A stretch of DNA of 53,575 nt from positions 1-53,575 of the forward strand of contig JACYLU010000034.1 in NCBI GenBank assembly GCA_015272325.1. The letters are read 5' to 3'. Shown here piece after piece: positions 25,899 through 42,361 of this stretch. The notes beneath the pieces were generated by a model. The model made no database searches. It was not told the DNA's origin and saw nothing but the letters and a program-made list of their open reading frames with translations. Every line of letters starts with the position of its first letter. The first letter of the stretch is position 1. The translations under genes were made by a program, and so were the position numbers. The DNA comes from Synechococcales cyanobacterium C42_A2020_086 (lineage in GTDB: Bacteria > Cyanobacteriota > Cyanobacteriia > Elainellales > Elainellaceae).

Positions 25899-26006
25899 GC
25901 GAGGGGGATTAAGCTTTCTCGCGTGTAGTTACCGCCGATGCAAATTGGGCAATCACTCGTCTACAAGTTCAGCGACTACATGCCTGTACCACATTGCCCC
26001 GTTACC

Positions 26007-27167
26007 TCAGTTTCTGTATGCTCTTCGACTCACCCAAAACAACATAGGAATGGCAGCCAATTGGATCAACACTGAAAAAACAGCCAGGGCAGGTAGCGAA
26101 AAATCGTATAAAACGCCCATCAACGCACTTCCTGCAAACCAGGCAAGTCCATAGCCGGTGTTGAAGATGCCATAGGCAGACCCGCGACGCTCTGGTGGCA
26201 CAATTCCAGCGACAGCGGCTTTCATAATCGACTCCTGAGCACCCATTCCAATCCCCCACAGCACCATGCCCAGAATCGTTAATTGAGCATTTCCCAGAAA
26301 TACGAGCGGCGCAAAGAACAGAGATAGCCCAACTGCCGCCATTAAACTCCTTAGCCCAATTTGATCAAACCAGCGACCAAATACTAAAGCCGCGATCGCA
26401 TCTATACCCATTGCCAGGGCATAGAGTAGGGGGATCTGGCTTTTTGTATCGGTTCCCGCCTGCTGTAAGTGAAAGGCAATTAACGGGAAGTCGGCATAGC
26501 CTGCGGCAATCAGGGCGATCGCTCCCAAATAGATCCAAAAGCGACGCGGTAAACCCTCGGTATGTAAGTCGGCTAGGGAGGGTGGCTCAAAGTCACGCGG
26601 ATTGGGGTAGATCTGCTGGGTAATCAATAACACAAGTAAGCCAAGGACAGCCGGAATCACCAGAATCGCAAAGCCACCGCGATAGCCAAACTGCCAGGAC
26701 AACATGGCTGCAACCATCAACGGTCCTGCAACTGCCCCAATTTGATCCATTGCTTCATGCAAGCCAAAGCCAAATCCTCGACCAACCTGCATCGCTGCAT
26801 GGGATAGCAACACATCGCGGGGAGGAGTCCGAACGGCTTTTCCGGTGCGTTCTGCGATCATGAGTCCGGCAGCCGCCTGCCAGGTTCCCGTCAGGGCCAA
26901 CAACGGCACAACGGCGGTGTTGATAAAATAGCCTAGGGTTGTAATGCCCCAGTATTTGCGAGTGCGATCGCTAACATAGCCAATCACTAACCGAAACCCA
27001 TAACCGATCAGCTCACCCAAGCCTGCAACAATGCCAACGATCGTGCCACTTGCACCCAGGCTTCCCAGATAAGCTCCGGTAATGCTACGTGCTCCTTCGT
27101 AGGTGGCATCGGCACAGAGGCTGACAACGCCTAGAAAAATGACAAACCATAATGCAGATTTCTTCAT
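26007..27167 (-). CDS. MFS transporter
   Basis: A 386-residue carrier with 11-12 helices. It starts SALWFVIFLGVVSLCADATYEGARSI and shows GYVSDRTRKYWG (motif A), RTGKAVRTPPRDVLLSHA and a C-terminal half with QESIMKAAVAGIVPPERRGSAYG, a set typical of a prokaryotic drug or unknown-substrate MFS subfamily. ATG 27167 lies five bases after the stop of a small upstream frame, and the universal stress gene precedes that on the same strand. It may therefore share the fluoride-responsive transcript. Confidence 0.88.
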   Translation of the reverse strand: MKKSALWFVIFLGVVSLCADATYEGARSITGAYLGSLGASGTIVGIVAGLGELIGYGFRLVIGYVSDRTRKYWGITTLGYFINTAVVPLLALTGTWQAAAGLMIAERTGKAVRTPPRDVLLSHAAMQVGRGFGFGLHEAMDQIGAVAGPLMVAAMLSWQFGYRGGFAILVIPAVLGLLVLLITQQIYPNPRDFEPPSLADLHTEGLPRRFWIYLGAIALIAAGYADFPLIAFHLQQAGTDTKSQIPLLYALAMGIDAIAALVFGRWFDQIGLRSLMAAVGLSLFFAPLVFLGNAQLTILGMVLWGIGMGAQESIMKAAVAGIVPPERRGSAYGIFNTGYGLAWFAGSALMGVLYDFSLPALAVFSVLIQLAAIPMLFWVSRRAYRN

Positions 27168-27171
27168 CTGG

Positions 27172-27345
27172 TTAACTTGCCCCTTCTGGTTCTTGCCTTA
27201 GCGCTATCTTGAATTTGCTGATTACTTCTGCGGGTGGACTCATGCTCTTGTAATCGTCCATGTACATGCCTCCACCTTCATGGTTTTGCCCTAGTACCTG
27301 TTGAATCAGGTAACCTTTGTTGGAGAGATGCGGGAAATGGCTCAT
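27172..27345 (-). CDS. 57-residue frame resembling the start of a Ser/Thr kinase
   Basis: ATG 27345 to TAA 27172. The first residues SHFPHLSNKGYLIQQVLGQN and HEGG closely resemble the N-terminus of many cyanobacterial Hanks-type kinases, which continue into the glycine-rich loop. Here the frame runs on as MYMDDYKSMSPPAEVISKF and ends. It fits tightly between the universal stress gene (stop 27352) and the MFS gene (start 27167). Either it is a kinase relic that kept an open frame or a small protein. No kinase catalytic motif is present. Confidence 0.4.
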   Translation of the reverse strand: MSHFPHLSNKGYLIQQVLGQNHEGGGMYMDDYKSMSPPAEVISKFKIALRQEPEGAS

Positions 27346-27351
27346 AATCAG

Positions 27352-27828
27352 TTAAGCTGCTAAAGGATGAATAGTCAGCACAGAGCAGGGAGCATGATGA
27401 ACCACATAGTTGCTAACACTCCCTAGCAGCAGTTCACTGAGTCCAGAACGACCGTGACGACCCAAAATAATGAGATCCGCTTCCCAGATACGGGCAAGTT
27501 GACAAATTTCCTGAGCAGGGTCTCCCTGACCCTGAATATACTCGGTGTTGATTCCCCTGTTGAGGGCCTCGGCAGCGCGTGAGCGCAAAAAATCCAGTCC
27601 TTCTTTTTGATAGACCTCCCATTGGTGTAAATAAAGGGTCGTCAAATCGCCTAGTTCACCCATGTATCTATCGGGTGTAGTGGGCACCGGAGACCCCTCT
27701 TCGGCAGAGGACAGGATATGAACCAGCATGAGGGAAGCACCAACGGTGCTTGCCAGATCCAGTGCTTGCTGAAACACCGATCCATTCACGTTCGCATAGT
27801 CTAATGCTACTAAAATCTTTTGAAACAT
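27352..27828 (-). CDS. Universal stress protein under a fluoride riboswitch
   Basis: A 158-residue UspA-fold protein. I take ATG 27828 as start because AAGGAGG lies six bases upstream and the protein then opens FQKILVALDYANVNGSVFQQAL; an in-frame ATG 14 codons earlier adds non-homologous residues. The ATP-binding signature GRHGRSGLSELLLGSVSNYVV is intact near the C-terminus (G-2x-G-9x-G-S). The gene follows the riboswitch at 27902-27963, so it should be induced by fluoride. UspA genes are a known though minor class of fluoride-riboswitch targets. Confidence 0.9.
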   Translation of the reverse strand: MFQKILVALDYANVNGSVFQQALDLASTVGASLMLVHILSSAEEGSPVPTTPDRYMGELGDLTTLYLHQWEVYQKEGLDFLRSRAAEALNRGINTEYIQGQGDPAQEICQLARIWEADLIILGRHGRSGLSELLLGSVSNYVVHHAPCSVLTIHPLAA

Positions 27829-27854
27829 CGTTGCCTCCTTGAAAGGACAGTAAC

Positions 27855-27909
27855 TTCTAGCTTCAGTCATCTGCGTTGCAGAGAGGACTGACTGAGACGC
27901 AAGCTAGAA
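27855..27909 (-). promoter_or_regulatory. Candidate expression-platform hairpin of riboswitch 1
   Basis: On the minus strand TTCTAGCTT (27909-27901) and CAGTCA (27894-27889) pair with TGACTGAAGCTAGAA (27869-27855), giving 15 base pairs interrupted by a six-base bulge. The first arm overlaps the 3' strand of the aptamer's P1 stem (GTTTC), so hairpin and fluoride-bound aptamer should compete. It sits just upstream of the ribosome site of the universal stress gene. Confidence 0.55.
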
Positions 27910-27963
27910 ACTATCAGCCCGGAGGCGGTTCTCTGGAAAAACCAGATGGCGAGTTTCATCACC
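27902..27963 (-). promoter_or_regulatory. Fluoride riboswitch (crcB motif) 1
   Basis: Minus strand: GGTGATGAAACTCGCC, a short variable hairpin (CTGG...CCAG), AACCGCC, then GGGCTGATAGTTTC. This is the conserved order of the crcB RNA: P1 is GAAAC/GTTTC, and GGTGATG and the ACCGCC/GGCTGAT parts form the pseudoknotted core. A -10-like CATAAT (27977-27972) lies just upstream, so transcription begins close to the aptamer. It controls the universal stress gene and perhaps the small frame and MFS gene downstream. Confidence 0.88.
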
Positions 27964-27998
27964 GTATCTTTATTATGCCATAGTGCCTTTGTGTTCCC

Positions 27999-28415
27999 TC
28001 ACCCGATCGAATTATTTTCATCCCTTACTTCCGCAACCAAACTTGCCTCCGCTTCCTCTCGAATCACCCGTCCAGGATGCTTCAACAGCATTCTGAGAGC
28101 AGTTTCTTTCTCTGGACTATTTGGAAGTTTTCTTAAAGCGCGAATGATCTCCATATCCTGCCAGACATCAATAGGATGATCGAATGCACATTCAGCCAGA
28201 GGAATTGCAGCCTTCACATCCTTGCGATTTCCTAATGTAATTATTGATCCCATGCGTGCTTCAGGATTGGGATGCTTCAATGCATGGATTAAACGTTCAG
28301 CATAGGAAGCGTGCTCTTTCTCCCATTGCTGAATATTCACACCACATGCCGGACAGACAAACGCCTCCTTTGATATTTCAGCAAAACACGCTGGGCAATA
28401 ATAGGCATGATCCAT
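27999..28415 (-). CDS. Zinc-ribbon plus HEAT-repeat protein
   Basis: A 138-residue soluble protein. Two CPAC knuckles (YYCPACFAEI and FVCPACGVNI, residues 7-25) form a zinc ribbon. Three short helical repeats follow (ERLIHALKHPNPEARMGSI, DVKAAIPLAECAFDHP, ETALRMLLKHPGRVIREEA), typical of HEAT repeats. It is likely a scaffold or adaptor; partner unknown. It ends 36 bases before the riboswitch. Confidence 0.78.
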   Translation of the reverse strand: MDHAYYCPACFAEISKEAFVCPACGVNIQQWEKEHASYAERLIHALKHPNPEARMGSIITLGNRKDVKAAIPLAECAFDHPIDVWQDMEIIRALRKLPNSPEKETALRMLLKHPGRVIREEAEASLVAEVRDENNSIG

Positions 28416-28450
28416 GGGACACCTCGTTTAACGCAATTCATAGCATTAGC

Positions 28451-29134
28451 TCAACACAACCAACCTGTGCGGGTTAACGGCAAGTTCCAGATCTTGTCAC
28501 TCTTACGCCTCAATACGGTCTGATAGATTCTTTCATAGTCGTTTTCAAAGGCAAACGCACTCCCCCTAAGATATAATTGCCACAATCGTGCTTTGCGTTC
28601 ACCCATGAGGGAAACCATCCGATCGAATACTCGCCTGAAGTTATCTGCCCAATGACTTAAAGTGATGGCGTAGTGGGGCCTCCAGGCATCGACATCGACA
28701 ATTTCCCAACCGGTTTGTTCAGCGACGGATAGCATTGTAGACAGTTGTGCTAATTCTCCATTGGGGAAAATGTAGCGGTTGATAAACCGTTCACCTAAGC
28801 TGGAACCATTACATTGTTCAGACGAAGCAATTCCGTGATTGAGAAGGAGATAGGCATCAACCAGTATCAATGGATCTTGGCTGAGAAGCAGCGATCGTAG
28901 AACCCCAGGATGATGCACCTGTAGAGACAGTTGAGAACCCGCTTTTTCTTGATCTGTTCCACCGAAAATGCAAAAATCCTGATTCCAAAAGTTAACGTGA
29001 AGCTCAAGGGGAAGATTAGATAAAAGCTCCTGAAGCCAGGCATGAATCCCTGAAGGGAGCTTACATTGAGTAAGTTCCTGTAGATTTGCTTCAGGTCTGG
29101 CATGGCTGAATGCATTGGATAAGCGATTTGACAT
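28451..29134 (-). pseudogene. Cyclopropane-fatty-acyl-phospholipid synthase lacking its methyltransferase core
   Basis: The open frame of 227 residues joins the N-terminal domain of CFA synthases (to LVDAYLLLNHG, about residue 120) directly to the C-terminal part (FINRYIFPNGELAQLSTML, VDVDAWRPHYAITLSHWADNF, LWQLYLRGSAFAFENDYERIY). In complete enzymes roughly 190 residues lie between these, including the SAM-binding motif with DIGCGWG, and none of it is present. The deletion is in frame, so a protein could be made but cannot bind SAM. I classify it as a non-functional remnant. Confidence 0.75.
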
Positions 29135-29241
29135 CTAAATTCCTCCCGCATAAAAGGCGATAATCTTTGTAATTCGATCGTTGCTATCCAAAAGAGTTAA
29201 CAGGTGAATTTAGAACCAAATTAAAGTCAAACTTATCAAAC

Positions 29242-30606
29242 TCAGGTATTCATCCGTTCATAAACGGCAGAAGCGGCGGGTGAAAACCGGGTGAGGTAAT
29301 TGAAGATCCAGAATTTGATACACGAGTCCATAAACACAGGGACAGTTGCAATAAAGCTCTTGATAAAGGTGTCATTTTCCGGCAATCCAAAGTGATTGAA
29401 CACACTCACTAAAATGACATCCCATCCCTCAACCGAATGGAAGCCGACAAACATATCGGTTACCAGAATCAGCAGAAATACCTTAACTGGATCGCTTAAG
29501 TTGAGAAACGACCAGTTTGAAAAATTGCGAATCGTGATTAATTTATCTCGGTTGAAGAAAATAAGTCCAATAAAAACTATTAGAGCAATAGCATCCGCAG
29601 CTACATTTTTCAGTCCGTTCAGGGCATGTTCTCGTGACTCATGCCAAAGTTCAGTAGCTTTTTCTTCTAACCGTTTTTTAGTTTCCTCAGTGGTCAATTG
29701 TGGTAGATTGCCAAGTAGTTGCTCGATTTCTAAAGTCTCCTTAAATTGCATAAACTCAGCATGAAATTCTTCTTGAATTTCTCGGTTGAGTTCAATTTGC
29801 TGAGGATGATGATTGCCATAGTTATCTAGCAAAGGTTCAAAAATCAAGTTCTTGGCAATAACCTGAACTGCAATGGGAACCAAAATTAAGATCAGTAGCC
29901 ATCGAACTGCTAGCTTGTTTTGCTTGCGCCTCAGTCGCAACTCATGAATCACTTGCTGTTCATATTCTGGAGTGAGTTCTTTCCCAACCTGGGTGAACCC
30001 TTTTATCAAGGCACTGGCAGTATTCGATCGATTAGCACTGGAGCGATTCCGATCTGCATCCAGCACAACTGGATCGGTCGTTATGTCAGGGTTTGAACCA
30101 TTTTTTTGATTGCCTGCGTCTGAGTTGAGATGTTGTAAGGCATGGGTAATCGATAATTCTGAATCGAGATCCTCTGATGTCAAATCTGGTTTATCTGGAG
30201 TGCGATCGCGGTATTTTCCCACCACTGACTCAATAAATTGGAGCTTCTCTAAGATATCCATTTCAACTAGAGATGGACGTTCCCGAGCTTGCACTAAAGG
30301 TTCATTGCCATTGGAAAAACTAGAGTCTGAGGTTTTGCTCAACAGCTTATGATTAAACAGAAAAGCACCGACCCTGAACTCTGCCAGGTTAATGCGAATT
30401 CTGGTTAGTTGGCGATCGCGTAAGCTCTTTACGTAGTCCACTACGGTTTTACTTTGTTGGGGAGTGTAAGCAATCTTTCCTCCAGCAAAGTAGTGTTCCT
30501 CCAATGCCTTAATCTCTTTTGCAGCATGATACGCTTCTTTGAGCGCATGGAGTTGCCTTTGGTTTAACCAACGATTGAAGTTCAACTTATTCACATCAGA
30601 TAACAT
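29242..30606 (-). CDS. pxcA: PxcA/CemA family proton extrusion protein
   Basis: A 454-residue protein. The N-terminal 220 residues are soluble and charged (ALKEAYHAAKEIKALEEHY, RIRINLAEFRVGAFLFNHKLL). Helix 1 is WLLILILVPIAVQVIAKNLIF, a long acidic helical segment follows, and then three more helices with the CemA signature ILVTDMFVGFHSVEGWDVIL and KFWIFNYLTRFSP near the C-terminus. In cyanobacteria PxcA mediates light-induced proton extrusion and pH control. A truncated duplicate of the last 85 residues lies at 1296-1554. The start at 30606 gives the usual N-terminus. Confidence 0.87.
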   Translation of the reverse strand: MLSDVNKLNFNRWLNQRQLHALKEAYHAAKEIKALEEHYFAGGKIAYTPQQSKTVVDYVKSLRDRQLTRIRINLAEFRVGAFLFNHKLLSKTSDSSFSNGNEPLVQARERPSLVEMDILEKLQFIESVVGKYRDRTPDKPDLTSEDLDSELSITHALQHLNSDAGNQKNGSNPDITTDPVVLDADRNRSSANRSNTASALIKGFTQVGKELTPEYEQQVIHELRLRRKQNKLAVRWLLILILVPIAVQVIAKNLIFEPLLDNYGNHHPQQIELNREIQEEFHAEFMQFKETLEIEQLLGNLPQLTTEETKKRLEEKATELWHESREHALNGLKNVAADAIALIVFIGLIFFNRDKLITIRNFSNWSFLNLSDPVKVFLLILVTDMFVGFHSVEGWDVILVSVFNHFGLPENDTFIKSFIATVPVFMDSCIKFWIFNYLTRFSPAASAVYERMNT

Positions 30607-30665
30607 TGCTTGTTTCTAGGTTTGCAAGTTGAATGAAATTCTCTCAGATTTATTCAAGGTGCCTG

Positions 30666-31076
30666 TTATTGTTCCGTCAATCGGTCAGTCATTGGGGAGG
30701 GATAATTTATAGATGTATTTCGGTGATCTGGTAGGTGCAGGTCTTCCTGTAAATGCAAGTCTTCATGCGGGTGGACGTGCTTAAGATCGGCACGATGGAC
30801 TTCAACAAACTCCCGCAACTTGGCTTCCTGACCAATCAATTCCAGGCGTTGGGGTAAATGATGGGGCGTGACTTCATGATGATTGTGATGCAGTTCATCA
30901 CCTTTGAGATAGCCCATATGCACCCGATGTAGCACCACCTGCTGAATCCCAAATTCTTTCGCAAGACGGGGAAGATGCCAATGTAGATGGGGAGAGGTTA
31001 GCCTGCGCCAGCGGGTCTTGCTATATAACCTAGCACCATGATTAAAGTAGAGCCGGAGCGCTGTCAAATGTCTCAT
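30666..31076 (-). CDS. DUF190-like protein with His-rich tail, linked to CLC-F
   Basis: About 136 residues from ATG 31076, which lies inside the end of the channel gene (35-base overlap; upstream in-frame ATGs at 31091 and 31124 are possible). The segment LPRLAKEFGIQQVVLHRVHMGYLKGD and LPQRLELIGQEAKLREFVEV match DUF190, a PII-like fold often encoded beside fluoride channels. The C-terminus is strikingly His-rich (KHVHPHEDLHLQEDLHLPDH), suggesting metal binding. Its overlap with the CLC-type gene implies translational coupling and a regulatory or accessory role in fluoride export. Confidence 0.65.
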   Translation of the reverse strand: MRHLTALRLYFNHGARLYSKTRWRRLTSPHLHWHLPRLAKEFGIQQVVLHRVHMGYLKGDELHHNHHEVTPHHLPQRLELIGQEAKLREFVEVHRADLKHVHPHEDLHLQEDLHLPDHRNTSINYPSPMTDRLTEQ

Positions 31077-32442
31077 GGATTTGCCATTCTCCATTTCTAG
31101 AAAACCTAAGGAAATTGATATCACTAAACAAATCGAACTCTAGTGGCTGTCTGAGGCTAGGAAAGGTTGCTAAGCCAATGCTTTCCTGTGCAAAGACTTT
31201 GGAATATTTACTTAATCCAATGCGTTGAGCACGGTAGATGCCTGTATGACCGGAAAAAAGATAGCTCACGACACAGGCAGTCCCCACAAAGGCTCCGGCG
31301 GGCAGTCCAAATAGTTCGATTGCCATGATGGTTGAAGCCAACGGGGTGTTGGCAGCACCAAACACAGCCACAAAGCCCATGCCCGCGAGCAGAGCGGAGG
31401 ATAAGGGCAAAATCAAAAACAAAACATTGCTCAACGTGGCACCAATGTAAAACAAGGGGGTGACCTCCCCACCCTTGAAGCCGACTCCCAAAGTAAGTGC
31501 CGTAAATGCCAGTTTTGCGGCAAAATCCCAGGGAGGTAATTGTGTCTGAAACGCCTCTACAATCGTAGGAATCCCCGGTCCAATGTATTTGGTGGTGCCC
31601 ACTGCCCAAACTGCGATCGCAACGATCGCGCCACCCACCCTAGAACGCAGCAGCGGATAAGCAATTTTGGACTTAAAGACATGCCCAATTTTATGCGTGA
31701 CTTCTGCAAATAGGAGTGCTACTAAGCCAAAGACCGTACCGGCAAAGACTGATGACAACAGATCAGCGGAACCAGCGGAGAAGTTTTCCAAACTGAGTGA
31801 AGGAACGTTCGCCAGTCGATAGTTGGTATGGTGAATGCCCCATTTCAACGTGACGTAATCACCGACGATTGCCGCAATGATGCAGGGAAACAATCCGTCG
31901 TAGCGAATCTTGCCGATTGCCAACACCTCCAAGCCGAAAACAGCACCCGCCAGAGGAGTGCCGAAGACAGAAGCAAAGCCACCGCTAATCCCCGGCATTA
32001 GAAGGATACGGCGAGCCGATCCTTTCAGGTGCAAGACTTTGGTGAGTTGATCGGCAAGGGAGGCACCCATTTGTAATGTCGTACCTTCTCGCCCTGCGGA
32101 ACCGCCCAAAAAATGGGTCATCACGGTTCCCAGTAGCACGAGCGGAGCCATTCGCAATGGAATCGTCTGTTTGGAATTGTGAATCTCCTCCAACAAGAAA
32201 TTGTTGTCTGCTTTAACAGATTGACCAAAGTGGTGATAAATCAATTCACTCAGTAACTCACTCAGCGGCAACAGGGCAATAATCCACCAATGTGCTTCAT
32301 GCCAATCCGTTGCCCATTCTAACGAGGCTAAAAGGGCAGCCAAAGCTGTTCCTGCCAGAACACCTGCGATCGTGGCGATTGCTAACCACTTGGCAATTTG
32401 AGGTCGGGCAAAAAACTGTTCGATATCCTGTAGCCCTTTCAT
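31042..32442 (-). CDS. CLC-family fluoride/proton antiporter (CLC-F type)
   Basis: A 466-residue CLC protein with about 12-14 helical segments. The gating glutamate motif GREG is near residue 119 (GGSAGREGTTLQMG). The anion-site motif reads GISGGFASVFGTPLAG instead of the GSGIP of chloride channels, as in fluoride-specific CLCs. FKGGEVTPLFYIGA marks the second half. Its leader carries a fluoride riboswitch (32722-32784), which with the motif divergence argues for fluoride export. It overlaps a 69-codon upstream frame at its start and a DUF190-like gene at its end. Confidence 0.88.
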   Translation of the reverse strand: MKGLQDIEQFFARPQIAKWLAIATIAGVLAGTALAALLASLEWATDWHEAHWWIIALLPLSELLSELIYHHFGQSVKADNNFLLEEIHNSKQTIPLRMAPLVLLGTVMTHFLGGSAGREGTTLQMGASLADQLTKVLHLKGSARRILLMPGISGGFASVFGTPLAGAVFGLEVLAIGKIRYDGLFPCIIAAIVGDYVTLKWGIHHTNYRLANVPSLSLENFSAGSADLLSSVFAGTVFGLVALLFAEVTHKIGHVFKSKIAYPLLRSRVGGAIVAIAVWAVGTTKYIGPGIPTIVEAFQTQLPPWDFAAKLAFTALTLGVGFKGGEVTPLFYIGATLSNVLFLILPLSSALLAGMGFVAVFGAANTPLASTIMAIELFGLPAGAFVGTACVVSYLFSGHTGIYRAQRIGLSKYSKVFAQESIGLATFPSLRQPLEFDLFSDINFLRFSRNGEWQIHETFDSAPALL

Positions 32443-32648
32443 AAATGCATCGAAAAATGATGGGGAAAATGAATCGATAACCGAGTTAATTTGTAATGAT
32501 ACTCAGGCGGATCGCTTGAATGATACCCAGACCCCAGCGTTAGGAAGTATTTCAGCCGCAGCGATTGAAACGCCGACGCACAACCCAGCAAATGCCTAAT
32601 CGATGAAACCTGACAGTCAAATGAATCCTTAAATGCTTGAAAATTCAC
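32439..32648 (-). CDS. 69-codon leader frame coupled to the CLC-F gene
   Basis: It starts at GTG 32648, with GAGAGG eight bases upstream, and its TGA overlaps the channel's ATG as ATGA. The peptide (FKDSFDCQVSSIRHLLGCASAF, YHYKLTRLSIHF) resembles nothing I know and has no membrane helix. It lies wholly between the riboswitch and the channel gene. It may be a leader that couples translation, or a chance frame. Confidence 0.3.
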   Translation of the reverse strand: MNFQAFKDSFDCQVSSIRHLLGCASAFQSLRLKYFLTLGSGYHSSDPPEYHYKLTRLSIHFPHHFSMHL

Positions 32649-32674
32649 AAAAAAGAACCTCTCAAAAACTAAAC

Positions 32675-32738
32675 GCTAATACTTCACAAATGCTTTTCGC
32701 CAAAGCATCGATCGAAACATGAAGTAGAAACTATTAGC
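32675..32738 (-). promoter_or_regulatory. Candidate expression platform of riboswitch 2
   Basis: Minus strand GCTAATA (32738-32732), seven bases, CTTCA (32724-32720) pair with TGAAGTATTAGC (32686-32675). An inner stem TGCTTT/AAAGCA (32707-32691) lies in the loop. The first arm is the GGCTAATA segment of the aptamer itself, so this fold should exclude the ligand-bound form. The same design occurs at riboswitch 1 with unrelated sequence. Confidence 0.55.
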
Positions 32739-32784
32739 CTTGAGGGCGGTTCTCTAGCCGCGCTAGAAGGTGAGTTTCATCACC
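32722..32784 (-). promoter_or_regulatory. Fluoride riboswitch (crcB motif) 2
   Basis: Minus strand: GGTGATGAAACTCACC, a variable hairpin (CTAGCGCGGCTAG), AACCGCC, then AAGGCTAATAGTTTC. It matches riboswitch 1 at all conserved elements with one change in the GGCTGAT segment (GGCTAAT). An extended -10 TGCTATACT lies at 32802-32794, about ten bases before the aptamer. The gene downstream is the CLC-F type channel. Confidence 0.88.
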
Positions 32785-32793
32785 GCACATTCC

Positions 32794-32802
32794 AGTATAG
32801 CA
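32794..32802 (-). promoter_or_regulatory. Extended -10 promoter of the CLC-F transcript
   Basis: Minus-strand TGCTATACT, a TGn-extended -10. The predicted start falls a few bases before the riboswitch aptamer. Confidence 0.5.
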
Positions 32803-33067
32803 AGTCAACTTAAATTTTACAAGCAAAGTCCGTTAGTAAATCTCTGAAACCCTGCTATGGAAATAAACATGTGTAGATTACGCTCAGGAGCAATCACCTT
32901 GCTAGAAGGAATCACCCTTAGCTAGGATGGTTCGGGCAAAAGCAACCCTATACCCAAGACGAACAAATTAAATCAAAAGGCTGTGCCTGCTCAAACTTGA
33001 GTCAAGGCATTCACTAGCCTGTAAACCTGAATTACGCCTTCTATGCAGATAACAGTCAAGAAAGATT

Positions 33068-33300
33068 ATGGATCTCATTCAAGAAATATTCCAGGCGATC
33101 GTCCTGGGACTGGTGCAAGGAATTACCGAATTTTTGCCAATTAGTGGCACGGCTCATCTACTTGTTGTCACTAAAGCCTTCGGCTGGACTGATTTAGTGG
33201 GGCAAAATGGTTTGTTGATGCCATCCAATTTGGCAGCGTCGTTGCTGTTCTGCTCTTGCTGAGCTTGGTAGATGGCTCCTTTAGAGGTAACGCACTCACC
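33068..33300 (+). pseudogene. Undecaprenyl-diphosphatase (UppP/BacA) N-terminal relic
   Basis: From ATG 33068 the frame reads [21 protein letters not shown] and [17 protein letters not shown], the conserved UppP start. Near base 33215 the frame shifts, since the other frame continues [20 protein letters not shown]. After about base 33300 the homology ends at the neighbouring ParB-like gene. Roughly 75 of about 270 residues remain. It cannot encode an active enzyme. Confidence 0.78.
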
Positions 33301-33940
33301 CAGTAGCATCTGAGATGTACCCAGGCAAATGGCTTACTGCTGGCGTTCGACACAACTGCAACGCCGCGTTAATTGCCTGTTGAAAGCCTGCCTCGGTGTT
33401 TTCAAACGAAAGGTGCTGACGAAAATAATTACCCCACAAGAACTCCTGAAAAGGGACATCGGATTTGGCATATCCTCCTGCTTGCAAAACGCCCCAGGCT
33501 AAACTGCGGTAGGGGTCATCCTGCAACTGGTCTAAACTGGCTGGAATGGATTCAACATCAACTCGTTGCCCATCTTTGTCGTAGGGATACACCCAGGCTT
33601 TCTCCTGCATCAACTGCCAGAACTCAGCCCTTGACCAGTCTTTGCAGTTTTCCCACACTTTGACATAAACGGTTTCTCGTAAACCCGTCATCTGAATCGC
33701 ACGGGCACGATGATGGTGATCCACTACATAGGGCAGGTGATCGGGTGCAACCACAACGGGTAAAAAATGCTCCAACAGGTAAGCATCTAATTCATCCGCA
33801 GTCATTGCCTGAAACTGTTGAATTCGGTACTCTACTTCTCGATAGCCCAATGCCACTTGAGCTGGATGGAGCAAGTCAACCACCGCAAGACTGAGTGTAC
33901 CTGGAGGTAAGTTTGGATTGTAGTCTGGTAGAGTTGGCAT
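33296..33940 (-). CDS. ParB-like (ParBc_2/Srx-type) protein
   Basis: A 214-residue soluble protein. PGTLSLAVVDLLHPAQVALG and VEYRIQQFQ lead into a ParB-like fold with VVVAPDHLPYVVDHHHRARAI, where the DHHHRARA segment aligns with the ExxR-like nucleotide-binding motif of ParB/sulfiredoxin proteins of the ParBc_2 group. That group is annotated as putative nuclease without firm biochemistry. It follows the double-DUF190 gene by 11 bases at the end of the crcB operon, an unexplained partner for fluoride export. No good ribosome site precedes the ATG, which favours coupling. Confidence 0.72.
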   Translation of the reverse strand: MPTLPDYNPNLPPGTLSLAVVDLLHPAQVALGYREVEYRIQQFQAMTADELDAYLLEHFLPVVVAPDHLPYVVDHHHRARAIQMTGLRETVYVKVWENCKDWSRAEFWQLMQEKAWVYPYDKDGQRVDVESIPASLDQLQDDPYRSLAWGVLQAGGYAKSDVPFQEFLWGNYFRQHLSFENTEAGFQQAINAALQLCRTPAVSHLPGYISDATG

Positions 33941-33951
33941 TTTTTTTAATC

Positions 33952-34686
33952 CTATTCAATGGGTGCATGGTGAACAACATTGACGGCATCGCGTACCACA
34001 ATTCCTCCGGCTACCATCTCTTGGACAAGCGGTAAAAATTGCTCAATCTTGTCAGTCCGATCAATCAGAGTAACGACCATTGGTAAATCAGAGGAAAGCT
34101 CAATAATCCCCAGAAACATAATACGCTCCTGGTTATGTTTGCCATACCCGGTCATACCGCGCACAACGGTGGCTCCTACTAATCCGTGGCGGCGAGCTTC
34201 TTCCACTAATGCCAGATGAACGGGCTTACCTTGCCACTGATCCGATTCACCAACGTAAATCGTTAATCGCTCAAAGTCTGTCATCGGATTCTCCTGATTG
34301 CTGAATGGTGTAAATTGTTGCGCGGGCTGTGCCAGCTCATCAGGCGATACTGGAGCATGATGCACGACGGTAATGGGTTCCTTGATCACCAGACCATATT
34401 TAACCAGGGCTTGAACCTGCGGGAGGTAGCGATCGATTGCCTCCGGTTGATCAATTGCTGTCAGCACCATAATCATTTGCATCGCCAGTTCTGGCATCCA
34501 GTCCACACTGATGTGGCGATAGCGTTGCCCATAGCTCACAGCCGTTCGCATCACCGTTATTCCTGCAATGCCGGATTGACGCGCCGCATCCATCAACGCC
34601 CGGTAGAGTAATTTACCCTGAACGTAGTCCTCCTCTGCCACATAGATCGTTAATTGTTCTGCACTTTTCATCCGCTTCTCCTGCAA
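33952..34686 (-). CDS. Two-domain DUF190 protein
   Basis: A 244-residue protein made of two DUF190 domains. Repeat 1 has QLTIYVAEEDYVQGKLLYRAL and ITVMRTAVSYGQRYRHI; repeat 2 has RLTIYVGESDQWQGKPVHLAL and ATVVRGMTGYGKHNQERIM. DUF190 is a PII-like trimeric fold found beside CrcB channels. The duplication within one chain mirrors the duplicated crcB genes before it. It starts three bases after the second crcB stop. A role as sensor or regulator of the channels is inferred. Confidence 0.85.
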   Translation of the reverse strand: MQEKRMKSAEQLTIYVAEEDYVQGKLLYRALMDAARQSGIAGITVMRTAVSYGQRYRHISVDWMPELAMQMIMVLTAIDQPEAIDRYLPQVQALVKYGLVIKEPITVVHHAPVSPDELAQPAQQFTPFSNQENPMTDFERLTIYVGESDQWQGKPVHLALVEEARRHGLVGATVVRGMTGYGKHNQERIMFLGIIELSSDLPMVVTLIDRTDKIEQFLPLVQEMVAGGIVVRDAVNVVHHAPIE

Positions 34687-34689
34687 ATG

Positions 34690-35073
34690 CTATAGCTGTT
34701 GTGCCAGAGCAATACCCAATTCGACTCCTAAAAACCCCATCAATGGACTGCCCAATCCATATAGCATTGCCCGTTTATAACTTGCCAGTTTGAGCAGATT
34801 TAACATATCTAAGGCGTAGGTGGAAAACGTAGTGTAAGACCCTAAAAAACCAATAATGACAAAACTATTGAGCAGTGGGTCAGCTTGGAGGGATTGAAAC
34901 AGTGTTGCAAAGAACCCAATCAAAAACGTCCCAGAGAGATTAATGATAAACGTGCCAAAGGGGAACTCCCCGCCAAGTTTTTCCACACAAACCAGCGTTA
35001 AATAATAGCGGCTAAGGGCACCTGGCATGGCTCCTAGCGCAATCCAAAGGGTTAGCAAAAGAGGGGTTTCCAT
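34690..35073 (-). CDS. crcB: CrcB/Fluc fluoride channel, second subunit
   Basis: A 127-residue protein from ATG 35073; an upstream frame extension to 35196 overlaps the first crcB gene and is unlikely. It has four helices with SRYYLTL, the polar-track INLSGTFLIG, and the family signature GFLGSYTTFSTYALD. Fluc channels are antiparallel dimers. With the neighbouring paralogue this could be a heterodimer. Confidence 0.9.
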   Translation of the reverse strand: METPLLLTLWIALGAMPGALSRYYLTLVCVEKLGGEFPFGTFIINLSGTFLIGFFATLFQSLQADPLLNSFVIIGFLGSYTTFSTYALDMLNLLKLASYKRAMLYGLGSPLMGFLGVELGIALAQQL

Positions 35074-35125
35074 GTTGGGTGTATTGATGAACGGGGAGAC
35101 ATGAGATATCGCTAACCCGAAGGGG

Positions 35126-35590
35126 TCAGTTTGACCGATCGCGGTTGTGGGGCGTTCCCCTGGAAGGGTCAAGCTTGCCAAGGAGCCATTCTGCAAATGC
35201 GATGCCGAACTGCAAACTCATGAATCCTAACATCACACTTCCTACCCAATAAAACAAGTCTGCCTGTAAGCGATCCTGCTGCAACAAATGGGCACTATCG
35301 AGTTCATAACCGGAAAAGGTGGTATACGACCCCAAAAAACCCGTCAGGAGCAGCAGACGAATATCAGGATGTAGACTAATTACCTGTCCTAAAGATAGCG
35401 TTGCCAGGAAGCCCATTGCCAAACATCCGGTTACATTAATGACCAAGGTGCTGTAGGGGACATCGATTCCCAGAAGGTGATTCATGGCCAGTCCAAAATA
35501 ATATCGTCCCAATGCACCAGCAATCGCTCCCAGGGAAATGGCGGCAACGGTTCGCACAACGGGTTGTCGCAAAATTGGCTGTTTCAGCAT
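35126..35590 (-). CDS. crcB: CrcB/Fluc fluoride channel, first subunit
   Basis: A 154-residue protein from ATG 35590, which has TTTGGAG upstream (a GTG three codons earlier is less likely). Helices carry GRYYFGLAM, INVTGCLAMGF and GFLGSYTTFSGYELD, matching Fluc signatures, with Gly in place of the usual Thr after TTFS. The C-terminus has a short hydrophilic extension (KLDPSRGTPHNRDRSN). The second crcB follows after 52 bases. No fluoride riboswitch was found directly upstream, unlike the CLC-F and stress-protein genes. Confidence 0.9.
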   Translation of the reverse strand: MLKQPILRQPVVRTVAAISLGAIAGALGRYYFGLAMNHLLGIDVPYSTLVINVTGCLAMGFLATLSLGQVISLHPDIRLLLLTGFLGSYTTFSGYELDSAHLLQQDRLQADLFYWVGSVMLGFMSLQFGIAFAEWLLGKLDPSRGTPHNRDRSN

Positions 35591-35610
35591 GGTAAACACT
35601 CCAAATTAAG

Positions 35611-35745
35611 TCAACGAACCGTCAATGCGTTTGCCTTGGCTTTCACTAACAGCACATGGAGCGGTCTGTTTTCTAAAATAGCTTGAGACACCCACCCGAC
35701 TAAACCAGGTTGCCTCCAACAGGTGGCAAGTTCATCGGGATAGCG
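35611..35745 (-). pseudogene. C-terminal relic of a universal stress protein
   Basis: The end of this frame reads QPGLVGWVSQAILENRPLHV followed by LLVK, which matches the C-terminal ATP-loop region of UspA proteins (G-x-x-G-x-VSQAIL-x-N-x-P-x-HVLLV). The N-terminal 110 residues are missing and the upstream frame is unrelated. It ends 21 bases before the first crcB ATG and is probably debris of an earlier stress-protein gene. Confidence 0.5.
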
Positions 35746-35874
35746 CATTTTAGAATTCTTCTGATTTTCAGGCAGCAGTCCCCCCGCCTTCAGCAGGAGG
35801 AGTAGGGGCAAGCACCAGAGCAACCATAGGGGATGATCCACCCAGTCAACGGGGGAGAGCGAATGGGTTCATGG

Positions 35875-38751
35875 CTACAACCCCACCGGAGCGATCGGCT
35901 CAATCTCGGGTATCGTGCCGCCCACCTGGGTGGTACGCAACACCAGCACGGTGGCTCCCCGTTGTAGAAAGGATGTGATCACCGCATCACTGGCGATTCG
36001 GGGCAGTACGGTACGCCAGCTCACTAGGGCAGTGGCCAACTGCTTGACGGGGTCATCTTCGAGACTGCTACCCAAAACAGCTTCGTGGTTCTGCCAGTCG
36101 GCTCGGGCGGTGCCCCAGGGCAGCAAATCACGCTTGAGCGAAAGTCCAATTTGCTGAAGCTGCTTGACCTGCCCAGCCTGGTCAGGATGCGTCTGAAGCC
36201 AGGACACTGAGTTGGACAGGGTTGTCGTAGCCCGGTTGATCTGCTGGAGGGCAGCATAAAGTGCCTGATTAGAGTCTTGAGCACAGTTGTTAGCGGGTCC
36301 GACGTAGGTGATGCCGCTGCCATCACCAGTTCGGTAGCGGGCCATCATGATTTGGAGTTGGTGCTGCAGCAGTTCTAAGGGACAGACAACATCGCCGTCA
36401 ATGTCGTAGCGGTTGGTGAAAGCATCGAGTTTGATCACAGCATCGCGCACCGGGCGCAGGTTAAGCCACCCAAACTGGCGATCGCCCATGTAGTTTGACC
36501 AATGGTGACGGCAAGCAATCAACCCGTCACCATTTTGGGTATAGACCTGAAAGTACTGCATCTCTAGCCGCAAGTCGTCAGTTAGAGGCTCTTGTACCAC
36601 CTCTGCCAATCCATAGGCAAAGTGACCAAAATAGATTGGGCCCCGCGCCGCTGGTTCGGTCATTTGTCCGCCCACGCCGCCGTAGACGTGGTTGAGAAGC
36701 AGCCGATCACCCAGATGAAAGGAGGAAGAATCCTTTTCGCTTGCCCGCAGCAGTACGGAGCTGATCGTACCCTTGACTCCCTTAACTGTCCAGGAGACCT
36801 GTTTAAGGTAGCGACGGGTGGCGGTTTTGCCAACGATCTCTTGATCAGGGATAAGGGTAAACAACGCACGGGGGGCCAGAGCCTGTACCACAAACCGCCC
36901 ACTGCGGTCGGGCGCACCGTAGAGATACCAGCCATCCGGGTTGCAGGGCGATCGCTCCAAGTTTTGGTTACTAGAGGGACGCAAACCATTGATGTTGGGC
37001 ACTACCTGGGGCAACCACACCACCTCTTCGAGTCCATCGAACTGGCGGGTACTTCGGTTGAAATGACGAATGCGATAGAGCATACCGTCAGCAGTGGTCT
37101 GACTAGGGGCAATAAACTGGGCGATTGCATAGAACCGACCGCTGATCTGAGCCGGGTCCTGATCGATCAAGACCTGCACTACCCCATTTGGCAGGGAATC
37201 TATCTGCACCGGGCCATTCAACATCACTACCATGTTGTCTGTGGGCCTGGCCCCAGCCAGTGACTCCAGGGGTCCCACCTGTCGCCAACCGTTGAGCCGT
37301 TCGGGCACCACCTTGCCCTGGCGACGGCTATAGTCAGCATCGGCACTGAAGTGCAGATCCCGCGTCACTGTGCTCAAGTACTGGCGTACCCAGGGAGTGT
37401 TTTGCCAGCTCAGCCAGACCCGTTGACCTACTAGGTGGCTATAGTCAGCAGTAGCATGGTGTACTTCAAACCAGACCCCATCTTGGGGTTGCCGCTGATC
37501 TAAGGTGGGCAATATCAGCCGACCCATCCAGGGGGCAATGGGACGGTAGTGGGCAGCATCGACCACCACCCCCAGGGGATAGGCTTCTGGTTGGTTAAAG
37601 TCTCCCTGTTGAGCCAGGCTATAGCTGCTGGGGCAAGGAGCAGTGCTGGGTTGCTCCAATGGCAGCTTTTCCTGCAAAATGTTGGTCACCCAGTCCACCG
37701 TTTGCTGGAGGTGGGTGCGACCGTCGGGTAAGCGCAGGTTAGGGTCAAACACCCCTCCCGGTGTCTGATGCCCCACTGGGCCCAGGGAAATAAACGTCAC
37801 TAGCCCGCGCTTTTTAGCTCGATTCCAGTATGAGAGGAACATAACTTTCCAGCGCTTGGGAAACAGCACCGGGCCGGTGCGCTCCACTGGGTCTTTGTCG
37901 CCTACGAGGTGGTAGATGTGGTTGAGGTTGAGAATTTTGTTGTGCCCGCAGAAGACTCCCGCCAGGGAGATAATATCGAGGGGAGCATCCAGCGATTGTT
38001 GCAACAGCGGAGCTGCCCCCATGGCGATTTCGCTGCCGCCGCTAAAGCCTAGCAGCGTGATCGGCACCCGACTGCCTGGACGGTAGCCCTCATTGATCAG
38101 TCCGTTGTAGATCACCTGGGCCATGCCACGGTTGTAGACAGGACCGTAGCGCGTATCAGTCGACACCAGCACCACTAGCAAATTGCGAATGTTAATTAAC
38201 ATTCCCAGAACTTTGAAGAAGTGCTTCGATCGCAGCCAAGTCACCAGTCGCCAAAATGCCGACATCGGTCGATCTTCTATCAGGGGTTTGTTCAATACCG
38301 AGTAGGGCGTAATACCCCGCACCACTACCATGTCTGGCAGGGACTGACCCAGAGCACTAAGAAACTGCTCCGCCTCTGGGGCATAGGTAGACTTAAACTG
38401 GCCGATACCGTCGAGATAGACGATGTAGCGCCTCGCCTGAGTTGGAGGCAATGGCTCTTCGGCGGTGCAGGGTGTTCTGTGCGGGTCTACTTGATCGCCA
38501 TACCATCCAGCCCACCAACCCAGCGTCTCCAAGGGACTGAGTAGGGCTGCAACAATGAGTGCGCCCAGTCCCATCAGCAGCAGATCTAAGAAGATCCGTT
38601 CGGTCTCATGCCCCACATTACCCCTGACCAAGGCTAGTGGGGGCGGCATTTGGGGTAGCAACACTAAGGGTAACAACACTAACCCCCCAGGGGCGATGTA
38701 CCTGGCCTGACGAAAAGTGTGCATCATCTGATTCCCCATGCTAATCCTCAT
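35875..38751 (-). CDS. Large membrane-anchored protein with lipase-like elbow
   Basis: A 958-residue protein I cannot name. Two hydrophobic segments near the N-terminus (about 15-35 and 48-68) precede a soluble region. Residues near 105-330 look like an alpha/beta-hydrolase: RRYIVYLDGIGQFKSTYAPE, then a nucleophile elbow ITLLGFSGGSEIAMGA (Ser near 235) and HIYHLVGDKDPVERTGP. The middle (about 380-700) has beta-rich repeats, and the C-terminus is helical. It is probably an envelope protein with serine-hydrolase activity. It follows the Yip1-like gene by 102 bases on the same strand, and this block seems more GC-rich than its surroundings. Confidence 0.65.
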   Translation of the reverse strand: MRISMGNQMMHTFRQARYIAPGGLVLLPLVLLPQMPPPLALVRGNVGHETERIFLDLLLMGLGALIVAALLSPLETLGWWAGWYGDQVDPHRTPCTAEEPLPPTQARRYIVYLDGIGQFKSTYAPEAEQFLSALGQSLPDMVVVRGITPYSVLNKPLIEDRPMSAFWRLVTWLRSKHFFKVLGMLINIRNLLVVLVSTDTRYGPVYNRGMAQVIYNGLINEGYRPGSRVPITLLGFSGGSEIAMGAAPLLQQSLDAPLDIISLAGVFCGHNKILNLNHIYHLVGDKDPVERTGPVLFPKRWKVMFLSYWNRAKKRGLVTFISLGPVGHQTPGGVFDPNLRLPDGRTHLQQTVDWVTNILQEKLPLEQPSTAPCPSSYSLAQQGDFNQPEAYPLGVVVDAAHYRPIAPWMGRLILPTLDQRQPQDGVWFEVHHATADYSHLVGQRVWLSWQNTPWVRQYLSTVTRDLHFSADADYSRRQGKVVPERLNGWRQVGPLESLAGARPTDNMVVMLNGPVQIDSLPNGVVQVLIDQDPAQISGRFYAIAQFIAPSQTTADGMLYRIRHFNRSTRQFDGLEEVVWLPQVVPNINGLRPSSNQNLERSPCNPDGWYLYGAPDRSGRFVVQALAPRALFTLIPDQEIVGKTATRRYLKQVSWTVKGVKGTISSVLLRASEKDSSSFHLGDRLLLNHVYGGVGGQMTEPAARGPIYFGHFAYGLAEVVQEPLTDDLRLEMQYFQVYTQNGDGLIACRHHWSNYMGDRQFGWLNLRPVRDAVIKLDAFTNRYDIDGDVVCPLELLQHQLQIMMARYRTGDGSGITYVGPANNCAQDSNQALYAALQQINRATTTLSNSVSWLQTHPDQAGQVKQLQQIGLSLKRDLLPWGTARADWQNHEAVLGSSLEDDPVKQLATALVSWRTVLPRIASDAVITSFLQRGATVLVLRTTQVGGTIPEIEPIAPVGL

Positions 38752-41181: not shown

Positions 41182-42108
41182 AGAGCTGATTTGTGAAGTA
41201 AACCTTAAGCAGCAAGCCGTTTAATCATCAAGCGCATCAAGGAACAATAAATCATGGCTTCGCTCACCTCGGAGTACAAATCATAATCTTTGCTTGAGCG
41301 CCGAAATCGATTCAACCCTCCAAACGTTCTCTCCACAATCCATCGCTTCGGCAAGGGCTCAAAGGTCTTTGCTATCCGTTCAATCCCTTCCACTCGAACA
41401 TCCTCACCACAAACCTGCCGCACTGCTTGGGCAAACTTCTCACCCGAGTACCCCTGGTCTACCCGAATCACTTTCAATTGGCGCAGTTTCTCCTTCGCCT
41501 CCTCGAGCACCACAATTGCTCCGAGTCGTTCTGAAGCATTCGCTTCACTCACAACCACCCCTAGCAAAAATCCCTGGGAATCAACCCCAATATGCCGCTT
41601 GCGCCCCTTCACCTTCTTGCCGCCATCAAAGCCGTAGACCTCCCCCTTGGTTCCGTCGTCTTCACCGACTGGGAATCGGCAATCGCGACGGTGGAGTCTT
41701 CTCGGACTAGCTTTTTACGCAGCTTGTGGCGGACCTCGTCGTGCATCTTTTGCCACACGCCTTTGCGCTGCCATTTCTTGAAATACCCATACACCGTGGA
41801 ATAGGGCGGTAAATCGTGAGGCATCATTTCCCACTGGCAGCCGGTGCGTTGCACATAGAAAATGCCATTGAGGATTTCTCGAAAATCCACCTCAACGGGA
41901 TGACCACATCCTTTGGCTTGAGGCAGCAAGGGTTTAAGAATTTCCCACTCGGCATCGCTCAAATCACTAGGGTAGGGTTTGTGCTGAGGATTGGCAATAT
42001 CAGGTAGACGAGTCATGGTCAAACAGTCACAGCAATTGCCCTAACTAGCCTAGAAGCAAATCGAAATGGTGCTCCTAGCCCTTTAGATTGTCTTTACAAA
42101 TCAGCTCT
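41182..42108 (-). mobile_element. IS5-family insertion sequence, apparently complete
   Basis: A 927-base element bounded by imperfect inverted repeats: AGAGCTGATTTGTGAAG at 41182 and, on the opposite strand at 42108, AGAGCTGATTTGTAAAG. It contains a two-frame transposase. A second, inverted copy of its left 58 bases abuts the right end. No clear target duplication was identified. Confidence 0.78.
41205..42022 (-). CDS. IS5-family transposase made by -1 frameshift
   Basis: Frame A (42022-41609) holds the N-terminal half: SDLSDAEWEILKPLLPQAKG, RTGCQWEMMPHDLPPYSTVY and the first catalytic Asp in VAIADSQSVKTTE. Frame B (ending at 41205) holds KGRKRHIGVDSQGFLLGV, VIRVDQGYSGEKFAQ with the second Asp, and FGGLNRFRRSSKDYD with the Glu region. 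The joint is a run of five G in AAGGGGGAG: a -1 slip there restores GEVYGFDGGKKVKGRKRHI. This is the usual layout of the IS427-like group, so the frameshift is likely programmed and the enzyme potentially active. Confidence 0.82.
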
Positions 42109-42165
42109 GATGCGCTTGATGATTAAACGGCTTGCTGCTTAAGGTTTACTTCACAAATCAGCTCT
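42108..42165 (+). repeat. 58-base inverted fragment of the adjacent IS
   Basis: These bases are the exact reverse complement of 41182-41239, the left end of the IS5-family element including its transposase stop codon. It is what remains of a second copy in opposite orientation, fused to the right end of the complete one. Confidence 0.85.
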
Positions 42166-42188
42166 AAAACAAGACCATTAAAGTGAAT

Positions 42189-42361
42189 GTCGCAATTCCC
42201 AAATCCCGGTCTACGGGACTGAAACGCTGTGCAAGTCGCCTGAGGACTGGGGAGCGCTTAAGTCGCAATTCCCAAATCCCGGTCTACGGGACTGAAACGC
42301 GGCTGAATCTGACGTTGCAGAGTGTTACGAGAGGTCGCAATAGTTCGTAAAATACTGAAAC
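42189..42361 (+). CRISPR. Orphan CRISPR remnant: two repeats plus one decayed repeat
   Basis: Identical 37-base repeats lie at 42189-42225 and 42262-42298, beginning GTCGCAATTCCC and ending GGGACTGAAAC, with a small internal palindrome TCCCG/CGGGA. A third, shortened repeat at 42334-42361 keeps only GTCGCAAT and ACTGAAAC. Spacers are 36 (42226-42261) and 35 bases (42299-42333). A 23-base piece before repeat 1 (42166-42188) may be a third spacer cut by the IS. The decayed repeat suggests the trailer end is on the right, so the leader was lost on the IS side. No cas gene is in the window. Confidence 0.85.

Follow-up and report, generated by a model that had tools for sequence, protein, structure and literature searches.

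The gene cluster described here raises the question of whether it is a complete and working set of fluoride-defence genes or what is left of one. It lies in a 53.6-kb stretch of DNA, called the window below, that is an entire contig (C9) of the genome of Synechococcales cyanobacterium C42_A2020_086. This genome is 5.9 Mb long and assembled in 38 contigs with an estimated contamination of 2.16%. The genes of the cluster are all on the minus strand (Table 1), in the order [antiporter remnant]-crcB1-crcB2-DUF190x2-parB-like, then riboswitch 1-CLC-F-(DUF190 domain)-pcxA (CemA family)-cyclopropane-fatty-acid synthase (CFA) remnant-HEAT-repeat gene, and finally riboswitch 2-universal stress protein (USP) gene-MFS transporter gene. 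An earlier reading made from the letters of the window, here called the sequence-only reading, described the cluster as an unusually complete fluoride-defence island. The link to fluoride holds, since the same kinds of genes are found behind fluoride riboswitches in other cyanobacteria. The completeness does not: CLC-F-DUF190 has been split and is undergoing erosion, the crcB operon has neither riboswitch nor antiporter, and the CFA gene carries an internal deletion. We consider it probable that a fluoride-resistance island was acquired laterally and survives, now partly eroded, in the window.

Two fluoride riboswitches and an eroding CLC-F gene

The sequence-only reading had placed fluoride riboswitches ahead of a universal stress gene and of CLC-F, and searches with the Rfam model RF01734 found both of them. 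Riboswitch 1 is over the curated cut-off of 34 bits, and the start codon of CLC-F is 275 nt downstream of it. Its counterpart precedes an unbroken CLC-F-DUF190 fusion gene in two relatives, G186 from another genus and G077 from the same family as the window genome. Riboswitch 2 is slightly below the cut-off and the same element stands ahead of the same gene, USP, in G190, a genome from another family. In both window elements the pseudoknot between the first loop and the 3' strand has six of six standard pairs, spelled GAAACU/AGUUUC versus GGAGCU/GGCUCC as the commonest cyanobacterial form. We accepted 70 elements as credible and were able to parse 67, of which 58 had all six pairs; with shuffled partners the mean was 43.5 and the maximum 49. 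Some of the nine that fell short are perhaps misparsed. Ten weak matches (23-29 bits) were left out of this count for their unrelated locations and not for low score alone, and riboswitch 2 and an element on contig C35 (27.2 bits) were kept despite scores below the cut-off. The RF01734 search of positions 26000-36500 gave no third match with E up to 1. On this ground we rejected a hidden riboswitch ahead of the crcB pair. A CRISPR model also matched at 34829-34900 (E 0.57), which we set aside as a chance hit.

The start codon of USP is preceded by a Shine-Dalgarno sequence (AAGGAGG) that is able to pair with riboswitch 2. In the lowest-energy fold of both USP leaders, from the window and from G190, the Shine-Dalgarno sequence is paired with GCCUCC of the aptamer. 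This folding suggests that fluoride binding would probably free the Shine-Dalgarno sequence and act as a translational on-switch.

The best solved relatives of the CLC protein behind riboswitch 1 are CLC-F structures (6d0j, E 3e-47 versus 4.5e-5 for ClcA). The sequence-only reading was thus right to assign it to CLC-F and wrong to call it a channel, CLC-F proteins being F-/H+ antiporters. The glutamates aligned with E118 and E318 are kept, in the motifs GREG and GGEVTPLF, and the residue aligned with M79 is an asparagine and not a serine. The roles of E118 and E318, and the replacement of the chloride-binding serine of CLCs at the M79 position, are described in PMC12035849.

In G186 (601 aa) and G077 (548 aa), CLC-F and a histidine-rich DUF190-like domain form a single protein. 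Alignment of the DNA with that of G186 showed that a frameshift divides the two frames in the window. The His-rich frame, previously read as a protein coupled to CLC-F, is a broken-off fusion domain and not a separate gene by origin, and we rejected the idea of an independent accessory gene since the domain is fused to CLC-F in relatives. In the 291 Cyanobacteriia genomes of our survey, searches with the His-rich domain found it in three, and a three-row profile found the same three among 36 genomes of the family. Close relatives of the CLC-F protein (E up to 2.3e-165) are present in 15 of the 291 genomes; in 12 of these the protein ends soon after the transport domain and has no DUF190 domain. 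The search for CLC matches to the fusion did not pick up G190. Scanning genome contigs by short patterns with the fused domain gave the G077 record JACQYI010000033.1 as the sole relative, in a scan that perhaps did not include the window genome itself and that would miss distant fusions because it works by short patterns.

The fused domain is a probable member of DUF190. In G186 it matches PF02641 at 24.9 bits, just above the cut-off, and a Pfam search of the G077 domain with E up to 1 gave no match. Comparison of a three-row alignment of the fused domain with 22 DUF190 domains by hhalign gave a probability of 69 and an E-value of 4e-5. A model of the G077 domain (of moderate confidence, pLDDT 71, built on a two-row alignment) has the order strand-helix-strand-strand-helix-strand, which is the topology of PII-like proteins. 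Foldseek searches with this model gave weak matches (best E 4.3e-3), with 2dcl_C at rank 20 and 1o51 at rank 46.

Erosion of the window CLC-F was measured at positions with the same residue in the sister copy and in four near relatives. The window copy has 25 unique changes at such positions versus none in G186. Twelve of these are at positions identical in all 14 other aligned CLC-Fs, and one adjoins the residue aligned with M79. Besides the frameshift, one codon has been lost from a conserved loop. The same kind of count for six neighbour genes gave 23 changes in the window versus 11 in G186 (Fisher p 0.0014 against CLC-F), a comparison that is approximate since only the first 268 residues of PcxA were used and the outgroups vary by gene. 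By gene, the window has none in CrcB1, three in CrcB2, two in the tandem DUF190 protein and eight versus two in the ParB-like protein. Relative to G186, dN/dS is 0.216 for CLC-F and 0.310 for its DUF190 domain (about 27 differences), with 0.090-0.119 for MFS, PcxA, the ParB-like protein and CrcB1 and 0.157 for the tandem DUF190 protein; the counts of amino-acid-changing and silent differences in CLC-F versus MFS, PcxA and the ParB-like protein together gave p 0.015. Between G186 and the window, codons that change the amino acid include 28 G>A/C>T versus 10 A>G/T>C differences and silent differences include 20 versus 27, the direction being unpolarised in both cases. With a frameshift relative to the fused form, a lost codon and 25 unique changes, the window copy is not an intact, constrained gene, and loss of CLC-F function is likely. 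The catalytic glutamates remain; on this evidence the decay is recent.

DUF190 at fluoride loci

The sequence-only reading correctly identified the tandem crcB genes, both of which exceed the curated TIGR00494 cut-off, the double-DUF190 protein, the ParB-like protein and USP. By sequence, the tandem DUF190 protein matches the solved structures 2dcl and 1o51, the latter titled putative PII-like signaling protein. It differs from these known DUF190/COG1993 proteins in having two domains per chain, and an additional, divergent His-rich version once belonged to an antiporter. Likewise, G186 and G077 differ from the solved CLC-F (6d0j) in carrying a C-terminal DUF190 domain, which in the window is split from an eroding gene. 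Two DUF190 domains in one chain were also found in G186, G190, G122, G039 and G218. G190 has an extra single DUF190 gene (L063 7976-8338) between the tandem DUF190 gene and the ParB-like gene, and it shares 98% identity with the second domain of the window tandem protein. Ahead of crcB1 is a short frame, without a Pfam match, that is probably the C-terminal remnant of a cation/H+ antiporter-USP gene. It occupies the same operon place as the antiporter of G039 and G122, and since only this short piece is present the operon appears to have lost its leader.

The window genome contains four fluoride riboswitches with E below 1e-4, two in the window, one on C22 ahead of a cation/H+ antiporter with a universal-stress tail, and one on C35 ahead of crcB-crcB-DUF190. 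All four CrcB and all four DUF190 matches of the genome sit on C9 or C35, at fluoride loci.

Across the survey, 69 of the 291 genomes have an RF01734 match with E up to 1e-3. We examined 80 of the 81 matches, leaving out one of 22.7 bits. The next gene is an antiporter-USP in 57 matches (56 genomes), one being a remnant in G190 and two, in G220 and G267, being in two or broken frames; in G253 an antiporter-like frame is behind the element. CLC-F is next in eight matches, USP in two (the window and G190) and CrcB in two. The other 11 comprise the ten of 23-29 bits in unrelated places and one, in G190, before a scrap that reads like CLC-F. A riboswitch directly before antiporter-USP is thus far commoner than one before an exporter gene (57 versus 10 of 80).

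DUF190 is present in 28 of the surveyed genomes, and we inspected its neighbourhood in 20. CrcB is within 1 kb of DUF190 in 12 genomes, counting G159 on a 51-residue match only. The antiporter alone is nearby in two, and neither is in six, including G229 where DUF190 is at a contig end. The order riboswitch-antiporter-CrcB(s)-DUF190 recurs often (G039, G122, G107, G043, G004). In G218, antiporter-DUF190x2 stands without a CrcB or a riboswitch match.

PII proteins tune or gate other transporters. By analogy, DUF190 may be a fluoride-linked, PII-like cytosolic sensor that binds, tunes or gates fluoride exporters, a proposal that we consider rather less likely than not. It would act on Fluc as a separate tandem protein and on CLC-F as part of the same chain, at its C-terminus. 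Most descriptions of fluoride exporters are of proteins that stand alone. We found no paper in the open-access literature that links DUF190 to fluoride; subscription papers were outside this search, so the link may be in print. One paper with crcB and "DUF190" actually concerns DUF1906, other text matches, going by their listing, concern DUF1908, and a paper on PII-like proteins names DUF190 only as an old name of CutA1. As far as our searches reach, what is new is DUF190 as a frequent companion of cyanobacterial fluoride exporters and as a built-in domain of CLC-F; the riboswitches, Fluc pair, CLC-F and USP are of ordinary, already known kinds.

Origin of the cluster and alternative explanations

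The cluster largely recurs in the same order in G190 and G186. The sequence-only reading had named synteny as the check on chance neighbours, and this shared order shows that the cluster is not a chance assembly. Eight island genes have a dS of 0.08-0.31 to G186, whereas rpoB is saturated at silent sites (pS 0.73). Six genes have a dS of 0.29-0.87 to G190 (rpoB pS 0.74), and the crcB and DUF190 genes have a dS of about 0.9 to G039 (rpoB about 2.2). Low silent divergence in the island next to a saturated rpoB makes lateral transfer the likely cause. The G190 copy of the cluster contains a DDE_3 transposase-type gene. Against 180 kb of the G186 chromosome, six blocks of the contig longer than 1 kb are 93-97% identical, arranged with an inversion and one displacement, and four further short blocks are at 68-90%. 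The last 14 kb of the contig have no match in this 180-kb stretch and one 93% match elsewhere in G186. The window contains, at 41182-42300, an insertion sequence whose 58-bp inverted repeats are perfect, and two CRISPR repeats of 37 nt lie next to it. The CRISPR repeat is exactly shared with contig C14 of the same genome, which has 129 copies in the stretch read and ends in the same insertion-sequence end as stands beside the window repeats. The insertion sequence probably split one array of over 130 repeats.

Several observations weigh against the reading of a laterally acquired, partly eroded island. The window CLC-F may still work, as it keeps a 466-codon open frame, both glutamates and a dN/dS well below 1. 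The dN/dS of CrcB2 (0.213) equals that of CLC-F, though it comes from about 15 differences. The case for lateral transfer uses a single housekeeping gene, rpoB. Shuffling the linker of the USP leader left the Shine-Dalgarno pairing in place in 130 of 200 cases, and when the fold is constrained to the aptamer form the Shine-Dalgarno sequence stays mostly paired, in a short local hairpin, so that the USP switch is a prediction. In Enterobacter cloacae FRM, deletion of uspA and crcB together lowered fluoride resistance but did not abolish it (PMC5533749), and genes of this type therefore need not be decisive.

Were the island fully working, CLC-F and a separate His-rich DUF190 protein would be translationally coupled subunits and their split would be functional. 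The two frames are indeed long and overlap with a shared orientation, the DUF190 frame starts with GTG and is 89% identical to its fused counterpart, and the catalytic glutamates are kept. We regard this as unlikely given the excess of unique changes in CLC-F, one of them beside the M79-aligned residue, the lost loop codon and the raised dN/dS of the DUF190 frame. Residues making up the final strand of the G077 model are also absent from this frame, and CLC-F is only a scrap in G190. Somewhat less doubtful, but still improbable, is that only crcB and the riboswitch-driven genes are related to fluoride and that DUF190, the ParB-like protein, HEAT, PcxA and MFS are passengers. The ParB-like gene is at only three of the compared loci, riboswitch-antiporter-crcB-crcB loci lacking DUF190 exist (G237, G005), and in six of the 20 genomes inspected for DUF190 the stretch fetched contains no CrcB and no antiporter. 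What speaks against passengers is the proximity of DUF190 to CrcB or to the antiporter in the other inspected genomes, its fusion to CLC-F in G186 and G077, and the position of every DUF190 match of the window genome at a fluoride locus.

Very unlikely, in our judgement, is an assembly or binning artefact, with the frameshift due to a sequencing error and the contig to a G186-like contaminant. The window is a whole contig whose larger blocks match G186 at 93-97% identity, with rpoB far apart, and the genome has some estimated contamination. The G+C content of the first 37 kb (0.48) is slightly nearer G186 than the window genome (G000), as are the tetranucleotides of all three pieces tested. 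A sequencing error, however, would not explain 25 substitutions. The CRISPR repeat and insertion-sequence end are common to C14 and the contig, and G186 has no match to this stretch, so the contig most likely belongs to its own genome. C14 is itself short (41 kb), which makes this link strong but not final.

Neighbouring genes, known systems and a possible mechanism

Table 1. Features in and next to the fluoride cluster, with positions in the window.
Feature	Positions	Strand	Evidence
MFS transporter, downstream of USP	26007..27167	-	PF07690 2e-28
Universal stress protein (USP)	27352..27828	-	PF00582 1.2e-32, 113.8 bits, cut-off 24
Riboswitch 2, USP leader	27898..27972	-	RF01734 31.6 bits, E 1.2e-5
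HEAT-repeat protein, weak zinc-ribbon match	27999..28415	-	PF13646 1.8e-9; also in G190
CFA remnant, 227 aa	28451..29134	-	PF02353, C-terminal part only
PcxA/CemA-type proton extrusion protein	29242..30606	-	PF03040 6.5e-79
His-rich DUF190-like frame, detached C-terminal domain of CLC-F-DUF190 fusion	30666..31124	-	PF02641 24.3 bits, cut-off 23.4
CLC-F type F-/H+ antiporter gene, eroding	31042..32442	-	Voltage_CLC 7e-59; 466-codon open frame
Riboswitch 1, CLC-F leader	32718..32793	-	RF01734 38.1 bits, E 4.6e-7
Frame-broken fragment between the two transcription units	33068..33262	+	sequence read directly
ParB-like protein (ParBc_2), last gene of crcB operon	33296..33940	-	PF08857 2.4e-53; also in G186, G190
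Tandem DUF190 (PII-like) protein	33952..34671	-	PF02641 3.5e-52, 175 bits, two stretches
CrcB2, Fluc fluoride channel subunit	34690..35073	-	PF02537 5.5e-25, TIGR00494 99.3 bits
CrcB1, Fluc fluoride channel subunit	35126..35590	-	PF02537 7.7e-26, TIGR00494 95.5 bits
Probable C-terminal remnant of cation/H+ antiporter-USP gene	35611..35841	-	27 residues aligned, E 5e-6 (3-sequence search only)

The gene pcxA is directly after CLC-F behind riboswitch 1 in the window and in G186, and is fragmented in G190. PcxA models are the best NCBIfam matches of its product but score below their cut-offs. The CFA relative in G190 (L063 1026-2378) is 450 aa long and the window copy has lost about half of this, from the middle. 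In the sister G186, CFA-HEAT-riboswitch-USP is absent at the corresponding place, and the Fluc pair and the unbroken CLC-F are side by side. Relatives of the MFS transporter were found with tblastn and blastp inside riboswitch-led fluoride operons in G043, G004 and G091 (loci L058, L059, L172 and L067 were compared) and adjoining fluoride genes in G039 and G186, so that MFS could be a further fluoride-linked transporter. The fragment between the two transcription units resembles the N-terminus of UppP/BacA.

Known fluoride riboswitch regulons are alike in having riboswitch leaders before exporters and a Na+/H+ antiporter, as described in PMC2864571 and PMC11139923; in the latter, a 2024 review, antiporters are the next most common targets after exporters. 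The window genome differs from these regulons in having four riboswitches, as many as G190, with two on a single contig, in the predominance of antiporter-USP as the first gene in the cyanobacteria sampled, and in a crcB pair without a riboswitch. The fluoride operon of E. cloacae FRM, ppaC-uspA-eno-gpmA-crcB-orf5249, resembles the window in being on a genomic island with a fluoride riboswitch, a universal stress gene and crcB, and its uspA rises about 120-fold with fluoride. CLC-F, DUF190, PcxA and an antiporter are not among these six named genes, and it is one operon whereas the window has several units, some with their own leader (PMC5533749).

The island probably works as follows. HF would enter the cell and dissociate, and free fluoride would bind both riboswitch leaders. 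USP would be turned on, probably at translation, by release of the GGAGGC of its Shine-Dalgarno sequence, which in the ligand-free form would pair with GCCUCC of the aptamer. The CLC-F transcription unit would also be turned on and probably runs on into pcxA. Fluoride probably leaves the cell through a (hetero)dimeric Fluc channel made up of the two CrcB proteins. Proton handling by PcxA here and by the antiporter elsewhere in the genome would offset the acid load. Because CLC-F swaps F- for H+, pcxA and the riboswitch-driven antiporter fit proton-coupled fluoride export, and the general case for coupling export with proton handling is made in PMC11139923. In its original form the island would have had a CLC-F with a C-terminal DUF190 domain and a crcB operon led by a riboswitch and an antiporter. 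The Fluc-DUF190 module appears to be still under constraint without its riboswitch, and CLC-F-DUF190 is decaying, perhaps because other fluoride loci cover its role.

If this PII-like domain, which travels with two unrelated exporter families and is fused to one of them in two relatives, does regulate the exporters, control of fluoride export would extend beyond the riboswitch to the post-translational level, and DUF190, a domain with no assigned function, would gain its first testable role. The locus itself would show a fluoride regulon spreading and then, once duplicated, decaying.

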